From NCBI GenBank assembly GCA_945928865.1, contig CAMENZ010000001.1:186001-250000 (forward strand): a stretch of 64,000 nucleotides of DNA. The letters are read 5' to 3'. The stretch comes from an uncultured Clostridia bacterium (GTDB taxonomy: Bacteria; Bacillota; Clostridia; Peptostreptococcales; Anaerovoracaceae). Below are positions 56,629 to 63,704 of this stretch, piece after piece (positions within the stretch are counted from its first letter, which is position 1; each line of letters opens with the position of its first letter). The notes under the pieces were generated by a model that was not told where the DNA came from, made no database searches, and was given only the letters and a program-made list of their open reading frames with translations. The position numbers were made by a program, and so were the translations under genes.

Positions 56629-57318
56629 TTAACTTAGCCATTTGATCAACTCGTCTAAATCCATATATCCCGGGAAAATCTTTAGCAGTTTTCCATTTTC
56701 ATAAAGGGCTAAAGTTGGGTAACAATCTATTTTATGTATTGCATTTAATTCAGGTTCTGCATCACCGTCTACTGTACAGAATTTATATGTTGGGAATTTA
56801 GTTTCCGCCTTTTTTAGATGTGGCTCTAAGGCTTTACACCAGCAGCACCAATCTGTGCTGAAATCTAAAACAACCCTGCCTTCAAATTTCAATACTTCTT
56901 CTTCAAAGTTTGAGGAGGTAAGTTTTACAACGGGGACTACATTTACCTTAAGCGTTCTCTTTAGTTTTTTGTTAGCCATACTCGTAATAATAATCTTAGC
57001 AGTTCCTTCCTTCAAAGGTCTAATACGGTAATTGAAATTACTGACTTTTTCTATTGTTATATTTTCATTGGTGGATTTTACAATAATTTCTTTAGACATA
57101 TTTTTTAATAGAAATTTTACTTTTATAGCACCTTTCCCTTTGGATTTAATATTAAAGACTTCACCGATATTTACCCTTATTGTCTTATTCGACAGGGATA
57201 AAGGTTTGGTGGTCTTAGCGTTAGTTTTACTATCTGCAAAAGCAGTTAGACCGGTAGCACTGATAATTAAAGATACACATAGGGTAAGTGCTAAAAATTT
57301 AATAGTAGAAAATTTCAT
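56629..57318 (-). CDS. Secreted thioredoxin-like protein with an Ig-like N-terminal domain
   Basis: A 229-residue exported protein. A signal peptide (about 1-29, FADS end) is followed by a beta-rich Ig-like domain (about 35-130) like bacterial Big_2 modules, then a thioredoxin domain (about 130-229) with active site WCCWCKALEP (CxxC), KIDCYPTLALYENG with cis-Pro, and GYMDLDEL. It may oxidise or reduce thiols of surface proteins. The extra Cys inside the CxxC is unusual. No membrane anchor is seen. It is a single gene. Confidence 0.85.
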   Translation of the reverse strand: MKFSTIKFLALTLCVSLIISATGLTAFADSKTNAKTTKPLSLSNKTIRVNIGEVFNIKSKGKGAIKVKFLLKNMSKEIIVKSTNENITIEKVSNFNYRIRPLKEGTAKIIITSMANKKLKRTLKVNVVPVVKLTSSNFEEEVLKFEGRVVLDFSTDWCCWCKALEPHLKKAETKFPTYKFCTVDGDAEPELNAIHKIDCYPTLALYENGKLLKIFPGYMDLDELIKWLS

Positions 57319-57552: not shown

Positions 57553-59229
57553 ATGGAGTTTAAGACTGATATTGAAATTGCACAGGGGTGTGAAAAGCAA
57601 AAAATTACTGAGATAGCTAAGGCTTGTGGTATTGAAGAAAAGTATTTAGAGCAGTACGGCAATTACAAGGCTAAGGTTGATTATAGTTTCTTAAAAGAAA
57701 AAGAGAATGAACCTAACGGTAAGCTGATTTTAGTAACAGCTATAACTCCTACACCTGCGGGAGAAGGAAAGACTACTACTTCTGTAGGTTTGGCAGATGG
57801 CTTAAGAAAAATCGGAAAGAAGGCAGTTGTAGCTCTCAGAGAACCGTCTTTAGGTCCGGTGTTTGGAGTTAAAGGTGGAGCTGCAGGTGGTGGATATGCA
57901 CAGGTAGTTCCTATGGAAGATATAAATCTTCATTTTACAGGTGATTTTCATGCTATAGGTGCAGCTAATAATCTTTTAGCTGCTATGCTTGACAACCATA
58001 TTCAGCAGGGAAATAGCTTAGGTATAGATGTAAAGGCTATAACTTGGAAAAGAGCTGTAGATATGAACGATAGACAGCTTCGTCATATTGTAAACGGTTT
58101 AGGTGGTAGAATGCAGGGAGTGCCTAGAGAAGATGGTTTTGAAATAACTGTAGCTTCTGAAATTATGGCAGTTCTCTGTTTGGCAAAGGATATTTTAGAC
58201 TTAAAGGAAAGACTGGCTAATATTATAGTAGCGTATAATTATGATGGAAAGCCTGTAACAGCACATGATTTGAAGGCAGAAGGTGCTATGGCAGCCTTAC
58301 TTAAGGATGCTTTAAAGCCTAATTTAGTTCAAACTTTAGAAGGAACACCTGCATTTATTCATGGGGGACCTTTCGCAAATATTGCTCATGGCTGTAATTC
58401 TATTACTGCCACAAAGATGGCTATGAAGTTGGGAGATTTTGCTATTACAGAAGCCGGTTTTGCAGCAGATTTGGGAGCAGAAAAGTTCTTAGATATTAAA
58501 TGCAGAATGGCAGGAATTAATCCATCTGCAGTGGTGGTCGTAGCCACTGTAAGAGCTTTGAAATATCATGGTGGAGTGGCTAAGGCAGACCTTAATAATG
58601 AGAATTTAGAAGCTTTAGAGAAGGGATTACCTAATTTATTACAGCATGTATCAAATATTAAAAATGTATTCGGTCTTCCTTGTGTGGTTGCTATCAATGC
58701 TTTCCCTACAGATACGGAAGCAGAATTAGATTTAGTTGAAGAAAGATGTAAAGCCTTAGGCGTTAATGTGGCTCTTTCTGAGGTATGGGCTAAAGGCGGC
58801 GAAGGTGGAAAGGCTTTAGCTGAGGAAGTTGTAAGGCTTTGTGATGAACCTAATAACTTCGATTTTGCATATAAGGAAGAAGAAAGTATAGTTGAGAAGT
58901 TAAATTCTATATGCACTAAGATTTATCACGGAAATGGAGTAGAGCTTACTGCAGAGGCTAAGAAACAAGCAGCAAAACTTGAAGAGCTGGGCTTCGGAAA
59001 TCTTCCTATCTGTATGGCAAAAACTCAGTATTCTTTCTCTGATAATCAAAATCTTTTAGGAGCACCTAAGGATTTCACTATTACTGTTAGAAATTTAAAG
59101 GTTTCCGCAGGAGCCGGCTTTATCGTAGCTTTGACCGGAGATATTATGACTATGCCCGGACTTCCTAAAGTTCCGGCAGCAGAAAAGATAGATGTTGATG
59201 AGAATGGTGTAATTTCAGGACTTTTCTAG
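57553..59229 (+). CDS. fhs: Formate-tetrahydrofolate ligase
   Basis: ATP-dependent formation of 10-formyl-tetrahydrofolate from formate. The 558-residue length and the P-loop [19 protein letters not shown] (about 72-90), [23 protein letters not shown] and the C-terminal [18 protein letters not shown] are diagnostic. The AGGAGG site precedes the ATG. It is the first gene of a fhs-folD-formate transporter operon, the methyl branch of one-carbon metabolism. Confidence 0.97.
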
Positions 59230-59247: not shown

Positions 59248-60135
59248 ATGGCGATAATTTTAAAAGGTGATGTAGTGGCTCAAGCTTTAAATGAGGAGAG
59301 CAGCACCTTAGTGGATGAATTGAAAAATAAAGGGATAATCCCTAAATTAGTAATAATAAGAGTGGGCGAAAAGAAGGAAGATTTAGCCTATGAAAGAGGT
59401 GCTAAAAAAAGTATGGAAAAGGTTGGGGTTTTAACAGAGGTTAAAGCTTTACCTGAAGATATAAGTCAAGATGAAATGGAAAAGGTGATTTCAGAAGTGA
59501 ATTCGGATGAATCAGCCCATGGGATTTTGCTTTTTAGACCCTTGCCAAAAACTCTTGATGAAGAAAAAATCATTAGCCTCATAGCACCTGAAAAAGATGT
59601 GGACTGTGCTAATGGGAACTCCTTAGTTGGAGTTTTCACAGGTAAAGGTGGAGAAAAGGGATGCTTTGCACCTTGCACTGCCAGGGCGGCTATGGAGATT
59701 TTGAAATATTATGATATAAAAATTTCAGGTAAAAAAGCCGTAGTTTTAGGTCGTTCCTTAGTAATTGGCAAACCGGTAGCCATGATGCTTTTAGATGAAA
59801 ATGCTACAGTCACAATATGCCATTCTAAGACAGAAAATATGGAAAAAATCTGTAGTGAAGCAGATATTTTAGTATCGGCTATGGGAAGGCTTAAGAGTGT
59901 TAATGAAAATCATGTAAATACCAATCAAGTTATAATAGATGTAGGGATTAATTGGGATGCAGAAAAAGGTGGCATTTCAGGTGATGTAGACTTTAACAAT
60001 GTGGAAAATTCAGTTAAGGCGATTACCCCTGTTCCGGGAGGTGTAGGTGGAGTAACCAGCAGTGTTTTAGCTAACCATGTAGTAAAAGCTGCTCAAACAA
60101 AAACGAATTTTAAGCCTAATAGGGAGGACCGTTAA
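59248..60135 (+). CDS. folD: Methylene-THF dehydrogenase / methenyl-THF cyclohydrolase
   Basis: A 295-residue bifunctional enzyme between 10-formyl- and 5,10-methylene-THF. The active block YERGAKKSMEKVG includes the catalytic Lys (the usual YxxxK pattern), followed by GILLFRPLPKTLDEEKI, PEKDVDCAN, the Rossmann GRSLVIGKPVAMMLL and TPVPGGVGGVTSSVLANH. It follows fhs by 18 bases and abuts the transporter gene. Confidence 0.96.
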   Translation: MAIILKGDVVAQALNEESSTLVDELKNKGIIPKLVIIRVGEKKEDLAYERGAKKSMEKVGVLTEVKALPEDISQDEMEKVISEVNSDESAHGILLFRPLPKTLDEEKIISLIAPEKDVDCANGNSLVGVFTGKGGEKGCFAPCTARAAMEILKYYDIKISGKKAVVLGRSLVIGKPVAMMLLDENATVTICHSKTENMEKICSEADILVSAMGRLKSVNENHVNTNQVIIDVGINWDAEKGGISGDVDFNNVENSVKAITPVPGGVGGVTSSVLANHVVKAAQTKTNFKPNREDR

Positions 60136-60762
60136 TTGGACTTTAAAAAGAATATAATTTATTCCATAATAGGTGGAATGTGCATTTCCATAGGCGGTGC
60201 CACCTTTTTAGCCAGTGAAAGTTTGATTATAGGGGCTATATTGTTTGTTGTGGGACTTTTTACCATAGTAACCTTTGGCTTTAATCTTTTTACGGGCAAG
60301 GCTTGTTATTTACTGGATAATGATGGAAAATATGCTGTAAATACGGCTATTATATGGGTTGGAAATTTTATTGGAGCCTTTTTAACTGCTCAGCTAATTT
60401 CTCTTACAAGGCTTGTGTCTATAAGTGCTAGAGCTAAGGAATTAGTAGGTTTTAAGTTAGGTGATGATTTAATCAGCATATTTATTTTAGCTATATTCTG
60501 TAATATTTTAATTTTTATAGCTGTAGACGGTTTTAAAAATAATCCTCATGAAATAGGCAAATATTTTTCCCTGTTTTTCGGAGTAGTAGTTTTTATAGTA
60601 TGCGGTTTTGAACACTGCATAGCAAATATGTTTTATATATCAATGGCAGGAATGTGGAACACGGAAGCCTTTATATTTATCTTGGTGAATTCTATAGGTA
60701 ATTTAATAGGTGGATTATTTATACCTGTTATGAAAAAAGTAGTTATTTCCTCTGAGGCTTAG
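60136..60762 (+). CDS. Formate/nitrite transporter family protein (short form)
   Basis: A 208-residue membrane protein with six hydrophobic segments and family motifs (GGMCISIGGATFLA near 14, LFTGKAC near 54, FEHCIANMFYI near 157, NSIGNLIGG near 190). Family members of about 260-280 residues have longer N- and C-termini, so this is a compact form. It starts with TTG, directly after the folD stop. With fhs and folD in front, formate import or export is the likely role. Confidence 0.85.
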   Translation: MDFKKNIIYSIIGGMCISIGGATFLASESLIIGAILFVVGLFTIVTFGFNLFTGKACYLLDNDGKYAVNTAIIWVGNFIGAFLTAQLISLTRLVSISARAKELVGFKLGDDLISIFILAIFCNILIFIAVDGFKNNPHEIGKYFSLFFGVVVFIVCGFEHCIANMFYISMAGMWNTEAFIFILVNSIGNLIGGLFIPVMKKVVISSEA

Positions 60763-60796: not shown

Positions 60797-60835
60797 AAGT
60801 TCAGCCTAAGAGTAAATATAAATAATTTTAATGTA

Positions 60836-60960
60836 GAGTAAGGATAGTGCGTTAAGTGCTTTAGGATGGGATGTTGCCTAAGGACGAAAGAGTTGCCGGC
60901 TTAGAGGACTAAATCTAGGTTTAGGGAAATTCTGCGTTGCTATACCTGCGTCCGCTGCTG
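60836..60960 (+). promoter_or_regulatory. Tetrahydrofolate riboswitch (folT type)
   Basis: GGATAGTGCGTTAAGTG, GGATGGGATGTTGCC, GGACGAA, and the end TGCGTCCGCT match the conserved core of the THF-I riboswitch. It directly precedes a folate transporter gene, the standard target. The outer P1 helix is not obvious. Confidence 0.85.
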
Positions 60961-60971
60961 CAAGAATGAGC

Positions 60972-61006
60972 AAACTCTTTCCTGTAGCAACTGCAGAAAG
61001 GAGTTT
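60972..61006 (+). promoter_or_regulatory. Hairpin hiding the ribosome site of the folT fusion gene
   Basis: AAACTCTTTCCTG pairs with CAGAAAGGAGTTT, which contains the AAAGGAG ribosome site. A THF-bound riboswitch would probably favour this hairpin and lower translation. This is inferred from base pairing only. Confidence 0.65.
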
Positions 61007-61009
61007 TAT

Positions 61010-62125
61010 ATGAAAAACAAGAAAATCAACATAAATATGTTGGTAATAATGGCACTTATGGTTGCCATGCACATTATTTTATCCCGTTTTTTATCTTTTA
61101 ATGCTTGGAATATGAAGATAGGTTTTGCCTTTCTTCCTATTTTCCTAACCGGTTATATCGGAGGCGTTATACCAGCTGTTCTAGTTGGTGTTATGGCTGA
61201 CCTTATAGGAGCATCTTTGTTCCCAAGTGGGCAGTTTTTCTTCGGATTTACTTTAAATGCTATAATAATCGGTATAATTATGGGACTTTGTTTACATAAG
61301 AAACAGGATTTAAAGCGTATAATTTTAGCTTCTTGGCTTGAACAGTTAGGCGTATCCTTATGGATAACCCCTATATGGCTTTCAATACTATATGGTGCAC
61401 CATATAGAGCTTTAATCTATTCCAGAATTCCACAGATCGCTTTGATGGCAGTGGTGGAACCTTTAATGATTTATTTATTCTTTAAGGCTGTAGAAAAGGT
61501 GAATCTTAAAAATACAGTAACAGAAGTAGATAGAGATACTTTAGACCCTAAGAGAAATCTTAGAAAAGTTGTTATTGAAAAGAGAGAGTCCTTGAGTCCG
61601 GAAGAAAGAAAGGCTAAATCTGAAAATATATGTAGAAAGCTCATAGATGGTGAAGACTTTAAAGGAGCTAAGAAAATTCTCTTATACAAGGCTATTAAGT
61701 CAGAAGTGGATTTAAGCTACTTAGAGGCAGAAATTCGTAAAATGGAAGATTTTAGAGATAAAAAGGTTATAGCATATCCTTTGGTAAAGAGTGCTAATGA
61801 GATGATCGCTTTAGCTCCTAATACAGAAGAGGATTTTGTAGAAGGTTTCCATAATATTCTAGAACCTAAGGCTGATGCTTCGGAAAAGGTTGAGGCGGCA
61901 GATTTTGATATAATTGTTTGTCCATGTACGGCCTTTGATGAAGAAGGAAATCGCATGGGAATGGGTGCCGGATATTATGATAGATACTTAGCTCAGTGTG
62001 GAAATGCTAAGATTGTAGCGGTTGCCTTTGAATGTCAAAAGGTAGCCACTGTATTCCCGGAAGCTTGGGATAAGAGAATGAATGCTGTTTACACAGAAGA
62101 ACAGGTTTATAGATTTTTAAATTAA
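61010..62125 (+). CDS. Fusion of folate ECF S component (FolT) and 5-formyl-THF cyclo-ligase
   Basis: A 371-residue fusion. Residues 1-165 form a FolT membrane domain with about six hydrophobic segments (MALMVAMHIILSRFLSF, GYIGGVIPAVLVGVMADLIG). Residues from about 180 form 5-formyltetrahydrofolate cyclo-ligase with RKVVIEKRESLSPEERK (substrate/ATP part), AFDEEGNRMGMGAGYYDRYL (the GMGxGYYDR motif), and VATVFPEAWDKRMNAV. One protein could capture folate and recycle 5-formyl-THF. It uses a THF riboswitch. GCAGAAAGGAG precedes the ATG. Confidence 0.9.
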   Translation: MKNKKININMLVIMALMVAMHIILSRFLSFNAWNMKIGFAFLPIFLTGYIGGVIPAVLVGVMADLIGASLFPSGQFFFGFTLNAIIIGIIMGLCLHKKQDLKRIILASWLEQLGVSLWITPIWLSILYGAPYRALIYSRIPQIALMAVVEPLMIYLFFKAVEKVNLKNTVTEVDRDTLDPKRNLRKVVIEKRESLSPEERKAKSENICRKLIDGEDFKGAKKILLYKAIKSEVDLSYLEAEIRKMEDFRDKKVIAYPLVKSANEMIALAPNTEEDFVEGFHNILEPKADASEKVEAADFDIIVCPCTAFDEEGNRMGMGAGYYDRYLAQCGNAKIVAVAFECQKVATVFPEAWDKRMNAVYTEEQVYRFLN

Positions 62126-62155: not shown

Positions 62156-62812
62156 ATGACTTATGAAGAAATCAAGCAAAATGAATCAGTTAGAACTTAT
62201 ATTTCTCAAGCTGACGCATCCTTAAAGGCTTTAGGATATACGGAACATAGTTTCGCTCATGTTACTTTAGTGGCTGTGAAGGCGGGATATATTTTAGAAA
62301 CCTTAGGTTTCGATGAGAGAACTGTTGAGCTTGCGAAAATTGCCGGCTATCTCCATGATATAGGGAATTTAGTCAACAGAGTAGATCACAGTCAAAGCGG
62401 AGCTGTTATGGCATTCAGAATTTTAGATAATCTGAATTTTTCTCCGGAAGAAATCGCTGTAATTACAACTGCCATAGGTAACCATGACGAAGGTACAGGT
62501 GTAGCGGTAAATCCTGTAGCGGCGGCTTTAATAATAGCTGATAAATCAGATGTAAGAAGAAGTAGAGTGAGAAATCAGGATACAGGAAAATTTGATATTC
62601 ACGATAGAGTGAACTATTCTGTAACAGAAGCAGAGCTTAAAATAAATCAGGCTCATACCCTCATTAAGCTGAAGTTAAATGTAGATTTGAATTACGGTTC
62701 AGTAATGGATTATTTTGAAATTTTTATGAATCGTATGATAATGTGTCGTAAGGCAGCCGAAACCTTAGGGCTAGAATTTAAACTTATGATTAATGAGCAG
62801 CAGCTTATTTAA
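62156..62812 (+). CDS. HD-domain phosphohydrolase
   Basis: A 218-residue protein with an HD metal site: H in EHSFAHV, HD in GYLHDIGNLVNRVDHS, H in GNHDEG and a distal Asp in IIADKSDVRRSRVRN. This is the layout of dGTPase/nucleotidase-like HD proteins. The substrate is unknown; a nucleotide is likely. GTGAGGTAGCAGG lies before the ATG. It is followed by the homocysteine methyltransferase gene. Confidence 0.88.
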   Translation: MTYEEIKQNESVRTYISQADASLKALGYTEHSFAHVTLVAVKAGYILETLGFDERTVELAKIAGYLHDIGNLVNRVDHSQSGAVMAFRILDNLNFSPEEIAVITTAIGNHDEGTGVAVNPVAAALIIADKSDVRRSRVRNQDTGKFDIHDRVNYSVTEAELKINQAHTLIKLKLNVDLNYGSVMDYFEIFMNRMIMCRKAAETLGLEFKLMINEQQLI

Positions 62813-62813
62813 T

Positions 62814-63704
62814 ATGGCACAAAATCCGACTTTCCAAGAGTTTTTAGCTAAAAATCTTGTGTTTTTAGATGGAGCTTCCGGCACAGAGCTTTTTAAGCTG
62901 GGTGCTAAATTCGGCGAAGCTTTAGAATTGTGGAATATTAATAAAGCGGTTGAGGTTAAAAACCTTAATAAAGGATATTTTAAGGCTGGGAGCCATGTGG
63001 TAAACAGCCTTACTTTTGGCATTCTTAATAGGGATTTTTCTATGGAAGAAATGGAAAAATTGGTTGAGGCTGCTATTTATAATTGTAGATGTGCTAGAGA
63101 AGAAGCCGGAATGGAGCATCCCACTTTTATAGGCTTTAATTTAGGCCCTACAAATAAAAAAACAAATAATTATGATGACATAGTCCGCTCTTTTTCAAAA
63201 CTTGCCTGTAAAGGTGAGATTGCAGGAGCGGACCTTGTTGTGTTAGAAACCTTTATGGATTTTGGAGAAACGAAAGCAGCCTTAGAAGGTGTTAGAGAAG
63301 GCTCAAATTTACCTATAGTTTTAATGAATTATTATGGTGAAGATAAGAAACTTTTTTCGGGAGAAAGTCCTGTAGAAGTTTTGGATTTGTGCAAAGAATT
63401 TAAGGTGGAAGCAGTAGGTGCAAATTGTATTTCAAATATAAATTTAATGATGCAAATTGCAAAGGATTTTTTAAGAGAAGGTAGTGTACCGGTGGCTATG
63501 AAAGCTAATGCAGGCATACCGCAGACAGTAGCCGTTTCCGAGAAAGAGGAGATTACAGAAATGGTATATCCTATTTCCAAGGTGGATTTTGGAAAGACTA
63601 TGTTAAGGTTGAAAGAAAATGGAGTTCGCCTTTTAGGTGGGTGTTGTGGTACAGATAGAGAGTATATAAGCAATATGGTGAAACTAATAAAAAAATCAGA
63701 ATAA
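62814..63704 (+). CDS. Homocysteine S-methyltransferase-domain protein (MetH N-terminal type)
   Basis: A 296-residue TIM barrel with LVFLDGASGTELFKLG, the zinc cysteine in VGANCISN (about 205), and the zinc pair in LLGGCCGTDREYI near the C-terminus. It transfers a methyl group to homocysteine, perhaps as a stand-alone subunit with a corrinoid protein encoded elsewhere, which would fit the B12 operon in this window. ATG 62814 lies one base after the HD stop; ATG 62793 inside the HD gene is the alternative. Neither has a good ribosome site. Confidence 0.88.
   Translation: MAQNPTFQEFLAKNLVFLDGASGTELFKLGAKFGEALELWNINKAVEVKNLNKGYFKAGSHVVNSLTFGILNRDFSMEEMEKLVEAAIYNCRCAREEAGMEHPTFIGFNLGPTNKKTNNYDDIVRSFSKLACKGEIAGADLVVLETFMDFGETKAALEGVREGSNLPIVLMNYYGEDKKLFSGESPVEVLDLCKEFKVEAVGANCISNINLMMQIAKDFLREGSVPVAMKANAGIPQTVAVSEKEEITEMVYPISKVDFGKTMLRLKENGVRLLGGCCGTDREYISNMVKLIKKSE

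Follow-up and report, generated by a model that had tools for sequence, protein, structure and literature searches.

Closest described systems and the fused gene

FolT, the S component of ECF folate transporters (family TIGR04518; E. faecalis 4z7f, L. delbrueckii 5d3m/5jsz), is described in PMC4525288 as having both its N- and C-terminus in the cytoplasm and as contacting folate, in the E. faecalis protein (EfFolT), through R26, K36, D64, F80, T81, N117, T121, R142 and K145. According to PMC11109136, S components end with helix 6, and an AxxxA motif in helix 1 is tied to their docking on EcfT. As for the ligand, PMC6609329 describes 5-formyl-THF as the most stable folate, imported by FolT, and as an inhibitor of folate enzymes that needs a cyclo-ligase (MTHFS) to be used. 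An S-component fold followed by a C-terminal soluble domain is known from the 5TMR histidine kinases, receptors without AxxxA whose soluble part signals, and in these receptors the C-terminal soluble domains have been proposed to limit toppling (PMC11109136). In queuosine salvage, finally, QPTR-TGT joins a salvage transporter to an enzyme acting on what it imports (PMC11130926).

Within the window, by which we mean the whole stretch of 64,000 nucleotides of DNA that was analyzed, a single ORF on the forward strand (61010-62125) runs from ATG to TAA, encodes 371 aa with 0 internal stops, and was recovered again in the whole genome at G000:C1:247010-248122. As the sequence-only reading had claimed, FolT and a 5-formyl-THF cyclo-ligase lie here in one chain, with both profiles well above their cut-offs: residues 5-160 match TIGR04518 (ECF_S_folT_fam, NCBIfam; 134.9 bits vs a cut-off of 60), residues 181-363 match TIGR02727 (MTHFS_bact, an NCBIfam equivalog; 145.6 bits vs 84.9) over profile positions 1-182 of 182, and in Pfam the protein matches PF12822 (36.9 bits, cut-off 30.7) and PF01812 (120.2 bits, cut-off 27). 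That reading was also right on the sizes of the two parts, about 165 and 190 residues, and on the retention of family motifs, GMGAGYYDR being present in the window protein. The gene and its surroundings comprise the following features:

57553 to 59229, forward strand: fhs, formate-THF ligase (PF01268, 917.7 bits)
59248 to 60135, forward strand: folD, methylene-THF dehydrogenase/cyclohydrolase (PF02882 and PF00763)
60136 to 60762, forward strand: gene of the formate/nitrite transporter family, FNT (PF01226, 104.2 bits)
60832 to 60959, forward strand: THF-I riboswitch aptamer (RF01831; cmscan 61.6 bits, gathering score 36, E 1.7e-11, model positions 1-99 of 99)
60973 to 61005, forward strand: hairpin, likely expression platform, pairing the Shine-Dalgarno-like AAAGGAG at 60997-61003 (RNA fold)
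61010 to 62125, forward strand: FolT::MTHFS fusion gene (371 aa ORF, two family profiles)
61010 to 61504, forward strand: FolT S-component half, residues 1-165 (TIGR04518; phmmer to 4z7f, 2.5e-21; six helices in the model)
61505 to 61549, forward strand: linker, residues 166-180 (alignments; pLDDT below 50 for residues 165-179)
61550 to 62122, forward strand: MTHFS half, residues 181-371, with GMGAGYYDR (TIGR02727; phmmer to 1sou, 3.8e-24, and 2jcb, 3.7e-17; Foldseek to 2jcb, 5.5e-11)
62156 to 62812, forward strand: HD-domain protein, downstream (PF01966, 32.3 bits)
62793 to 63704, forward strand: gene of the homocysteine S-methyltransferase family (PF02574, 129.7 bits)

The THF riboswitch (60832-60959) and the one-carbon cluster around the gene are absent from the sequence-only reading. 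Elsewhere in the window, at 56629-57318 on the reverse strand, a 229-aa ORF with WCCWCK and a signal-peptide-like start has a C-terminal thioredoxin domain (PF00085, 77.5 bits); the rest of its N-terminal part gave no match at E 0.001.

Distribution and origin of the fusion

Searching with the window protein gave a match that was full-length and free of stops in at least 8 of 349 genomes of the family, namely the window's own genome (genus g1) and G280-G286, the latter being all seven genomes of genus g70 that were searched. The g70 fusions are 50-52% identical to the window protein, and the split form occurs in none of the seven. An order sample of 393 genomes returned five of the same seven g70 genomes and no further fusion among the matches listed, and a class-wide sample of 391 genomes, with an alignment of the 8 fusions as query, had, among the matches listed, the fusion of the own genome only and no g70 genome. 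Family, order and class samples overlap one another and, the distribution being based on matches listed, a strongly diverged fusion could be missed; these counts nonetheless bear out the earlier impression that the fusion is unusual. Neither commonness nor prior description, which the sequence-only reading had named as outcomes that would speak against it, was found, the literature having been searched in limited scope: limited searches, mostly of open papers and with enzyme abbreviations not covered, gave no description of a FolT-MTHFS fusion, and the accessible main text of the gene-fusion survey PMC4921024 mentions neither formyltetrahydrofolate nor cyclo-ligase. Three of five loci in a contig scan (RUG141, Tb.RUG.297 and Reindeer_1_mag_186) carry the fusion, these being probably the same records as G283, G280 and G286, and the isolate labels of the three MAGs suggest rumen or reindeer gut samples. 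On plasmids, 84 records matched and none covered 80% of the query. G279 was considered as a g70 genome without the fusion and rejected, as it belongs to g69.

That an assembly error, a frameshift or a pseudogene joined two genes is hardly credible. One indel could in principle create such a chain, given that folT and MTHFS lie in different frames in two unfused relatives (G193 and G295). The same full-length fusion in seven other genomes at 50-52% identity, however, argues against an assembly error, so that the outcome set beforehand as fatal to the claim, a frameshift or misassembly, did not occur (7/7 g70 genomes). In the three g70 proteins scanned (L055, L056 and L002) both halves are well above the family cut-offs, and dN/dS between g70 genomes is 0.03-0.08 in both halves (10 of 12 values computable, and rough because dS is often above 1), far below 1 and thus at odds with a pseudogene. 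The fusion is therefore genuine, narrowly distributed and inherited; both of its parts come from known families, and it was built from an existing folate-uptake cluster.

The ancestry of each half was followed in quick trees, to which each of 51 mapped loci could contribute its best tblastn stretch (E <=1e-6, 110 residues or more), the FolT of G303 being outside the FolT tree. In both, FolT (30 rows) and MTHFS (39 rows), the 8 fusions fall on one side of a branch, with SH-aLRT support of 96 and 98. An rpoB tree of 27 rows, drawn from 27 of 30 genomes (G295 and G297 gave no match, and the partial G095 was left out), groups the fusion genomes likewise with a support of only 76, and its nearest unfused rows are g61, g75 and g16. 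As each half-tree puts all 8 fusions in one clade, a single origin is likely, and independent fusions in g1 and g70 are not favored.

Gene order was compared in the window and 27 loci, which were chosen for having matches and are no sample of the family. Six of the loci are g70 fusions, three have folT directly before a separate MTHFS, five read folT, FolC, MTHFS, two have MTHFS before folT and FolC, one has folT alone, and ten have MTHFS with no folT match in the stretch examined, G303 being one of these. Many of the loci compared have fhs, FTCD_C and folD upstream, the FTCD_C of L002, L061 and L062 being confirmed by a Pfam match. The closest unfused arrangements are those of G193, G295, G302 and G303, which share with the window the succession of riboswitch, folT and MTHFS and differ from it in encoding two proteins from overlapping or near-adjacent genes. 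In G193 and G295, fhs, folD and FNT also stand upstream in the window order, the full series being fhs, FTCD_C, folD, FNT, THF riboswitch, folT and MTHFS, that is, the order of the window plus FTCD_C; the overlap between folT and MTHFS is 4 bases in the former and 1 base in the latter. In G303 a diverged folT was found by profile (FolT-family frame, 65.6 bits, cut-off 60); it ends in TAG and is in frame with the MTHFS frame that starts a few bases later. The length of the fused linker is about that of a native FolT tail plus a native MTHFS head. With these neighbors in unfused relatives and a linker of this length, the most likely origin of the fusion is that neighboring genes under common control were joined, probably once.

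Such an origin raises the possibility that the fusion is neutral, i.e. that overlapping co-regulated genes lost a stop and a start, and that both activities persist with tethering bringing no kinetic or regulatory gain. We take this explanation seriously, although we do not think it the probable one. In its favor are a joint nearly end to end, with a linker of the composition just given, and the overlaps of 4 bases and 1 base in G193 and G295; in addition, the linker diverges more than the domains in three g70 pairs (G284-G285, G281-G282 and G281-G284), and other lineages have MTHFS attached to FolC or QueH, suggesting that it is easily appended. Set against this are the retention of the fusion in 8/8 genomes of two genera across about 50% protein divergence, the lack of any split form in the seven g70 genomes, and the fact that MTHFS has steps of folate uptake and retention among its partners.

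Fusions of the second kind, FolC-MTHFS, were found in g13 and g15 as proteins of 605-657 aa, 4 of the 5 candidates scanned exceeding the cut-offs of both TIGR01499 and TIGR02727. Those identified by profiles are:

L063, 2697 to 4514: FolC-MTHFS fusion
L065, 2715 to 4688: FolC-MTHFS fusion
L069, 4239 to 6080: FolC-MTHFS fusion
L072, 2579 to 4402: FolC-MTHFS fusion

They resemble FolT::MTHFS in that MTHFS is joined to a folate-pathway partner, and differ in that this partner is the soluble folylpolyglutamate synthase; in L063, L064 and L065 the FolC-MTHFS gene lies directly 3' of folT. In L067 (2534-3762, G064), FolC is apparently split in two frames, the MTHFS frame holding the second FolC half, below cut-off. 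The QueH-MTHFS fusion, seen in the one such locus scanned, is at 600-1799 of L124 (G383, genus g95, another family; PF02677 and PF01812), and MTHFS is found in similarly long frames in G373 and G390 of the same genus.

The two halves and their linker

The N-terminal half is like known FolT systems in its full family match, its six model helices, its AxxxA, most of its putative folate contacts and the presence of EcfT-type genes elsewhere in its own genome; it differs from them in what follows it, a C-terminal soluble enzyme. In a MAFFT alignment, seven of the nine folate contacts are identical to those of EfFolT (R26, K36, D64, F80, T81, T120 and R139 of the window protein; a pairwise phmmer alignment shifts the R142 region by a gap), and the two changed ones are N117, which is S116 here, and K145, which is Q142. 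Replacement of K145 by Ala is reported to lower the folate affinity of EfFolT about 110-fold. We rejected the change from K145 to Q as a fusion-specific change of substrate because Q is also found in unfused proteins: it occupies this position in 28 of 30 rows (8 fusions and 20 unfused family or order rows), with K in the two outside rows. At positions 120-121, on the other hand, T-P is present in all 8 fusions, as in E. faecalis FolT, and sets them apart from the other Clostridia FolT compared, the 22 unfused rows having N or Q at 120. H21 and W118 of the window protein also look particular to the fusions. Judging from these alignments, residues 21, 118, 120 and 121 may reflect a possible shift in ligand preference. 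The helix 1 motif is A15-LMV-A19 in the window protein, and among the g70 fusions the same site reads AxxxA in one of seven and GxxxA in six of seven.

The C-terminal half is like bacterial MTHFS (TIGR02727; 2jcb, 1sou, 1ydm) in having a full-length domain with GMGAGYYDR; unlike that free cytosolic enzyme, it is attached to a membrane protein. All 8 fusions share GMGAGYYD without change, the final R of GMGAGYYDR being replaced by T in three of them. The glycine-rich GxGxGYYD motif has a role in nucleotide binding.

A structural model built from 6 sequences has a mean pLDDT of 67.1 and a pTM of 0.46, with the linker below 50. In Foldseek searches with this predicted model, the FolT half matched 7nnt (8.3e-7) and the MTHFS half matched 2jcb (5.5e-11, TMt 0.78); model and Foldseek thus offer modest evidence that agrees with the sequence matches. 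Among the fusions the linker is short and variable in both length and sequence. A tight domain interface, which we considered, is not supported given this variability and the low pLDDT. Nothing supports channelling, as the linker is short, variable and of low confidence in the model, and no specific coupling is evident because it is poorly conserved.

The 5TMR histidine kinases, in which S-component folds with C-terminal soluble domains serve as receptors (PMC11109136), invite a further explanation, namely that the MTHFS half senses 5-formyl-THF or ATP and controls the docking of FolT, or that the FolT half is itself a receptor. We find it quite improbable. Besides the fold and the soluble extension, the likeness ends, as Pfam and NCBIfam profiles found no signalling domain in the 371-aa chain, the soluble part here being a folate enzyme whose profile is matched over all 182 positions with its glycine-rich motif intact; AxxxA, moreover, is kept in the window protein, and its genome has no second FolT above cut-off and no match to dihydropteroate synthase (DHPS). 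QPTR-TGT of queuosine salvage is like the fusion in its principle, that of a transporter joined to the enzyme that uses its import, and differs in its transporter class and pathway.

Control, folate supply and proposed role

The hairpin between riboswitch and gene has a free energy of -18.1 kcal/mol (z -3.40), and none of 200 shuffles was as stable. The sequence of its 5' arm (60973-60980) complements that of aptamer bases 60887-60894, and the best fold with GAAAGGAG unpaired has a value of -48.0 vs -52.6. From these folds, the riboswitch would be expected to shut off the fusion gene through the hairpin, which would hide the ribosome-binding site. A promoter and terminator scan was at background, with 5 promoter-like sites vs 5.0 in shuffles and 0 terminator-like ones vs 0.9. 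THF riboswitches also lie 5' of the unfused folT-MTHFS pairs in L021, L022, L029 and L033, and 5' of folT genes at other loci. None was found at gathering score in two sets of g70 loci (one of 7, among which L015 starts 300 bases before the gene, and one of 6), nor in the g70 folD-folT gap in two that were tried with E up to 1; riboswitch control is hence not a constant feature of the fusions. The g70 loci L055-L058, L132 and L133 are fhs-FTCD_C-folD-folT::MTHFS clusters without a riboswitch found, and several unfused relatives carry one.

The window organism looks like a folate scavenger, judging by its gene content. Its genome (98.98% complete, 1.55 Mb) has FolC, DHFR and four EcfT-type genes (PF02361 matches above cut-off), and FolT::MTHFS is in it the sole MTHFS match and the only match above the FolT cut-off, five other S-component-like stretches scoring below. 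Outside the window, at 1264-2298 of L009 (G000:C1), a 344-aa S-component-like ORF below the riboflavin and folate S-component cut-offs adjoins a putative ECF ATPase ORF and lies near an EcfT-type match. DHPS gave no match in any of the 8 fusion genomes; the seven from g70 are 85-94% complete, so that single absences are weak, yet all eight agree. Among nine unfused relatives, DHPS is above cut-off in three, weak and below cut-off in two, and without a match in four, from which it follows that the apparent auxotrophy is common to the group and not special to the fusion. In each of the 8 fusion genomes the only match to the fusion query is the fused gene itself (for g70 this is the outcome of one query at E 0.001), and with no DHPS match besides, these genomes probably rely on the fused FolT for folate import. 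As DHFR is present, folic acid may serve as well as 5-formyl-THF.

Taken together with the published import of 5-formyl-THF and the need for a cyclo-ligase, and with the cytoplasmic C-terminus of FolT, this scavenger look makes import and activation by one protein the best reading of the gene. On the strength of its sequence, we lean, if only slightly, toward a working folate importer with an attached enzyme that activates 5-formyl-THF on the cytosolic side. Its N-terminal half would capture folates outside, dock on a shared ECF module whose genes lie elsewhere and release folate into the cytosol, where the C-terminal half, held at the cytosolic face by the short flexible linker, would convert 5-formyl-THF and ATP to 5,10-methenyl-THF, which could feed the one-carbon pathway of the genes just upstream (FolD and Fhs). 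In such apparent auxotrophs a main form imported would probably be a reduced folate such as 5-formyl-THF, and one protein would then import the vitamin, make the folate usable and keep inhibitory 5-formyl-THF low, with plentiful THF probably shutting the window gene at its riboswitch. Transport, enzyme activity, imported form and riboswitch logic are here what we infer for the fusion, and any gain from tethering would lie in proximity and 1:1 supply, not in channelling. Weighing against the reading are the Q in place of K145, shared though it is with unfused proteins, and GxxxA at the helix 1 site of six of the seven g70 fusions. Conversion at the site of folate entry, which the sequence-only reading had in mind, fits what has been published on the topology of FolT and on 5-formyl-THF use.

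If the limit on toppling by C-terminal extensions were general, it would argue against transport by the fusion; either a C-terminal extension is compatible with toppling, or the fusion genomes have another importer. We suggest only tentatively, and think it rather doubtful, that an ECF S component tolerates and maybe exploits an attached cytosolic enzyme, consumption of 5-formyl-THF at the release site favoring net import of reduced folate. MTHFS being fused with FolT in one lineage of the family and with FolC in others is a hint that, among imported forms, 5-formyl-THF matters physiologically. If the gene does encode an import-and-activate unit, it would contradict the view that a soluble extension at the C-terminus keeps S-component folds from toppling, and would offer a natural test of it, as an auxotroph's importer would then have to topple while carrying a soluble enzyme of 190 residues. 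It would also link the function of FolT to the salvage of reduced folates in little-studied Clostridia.
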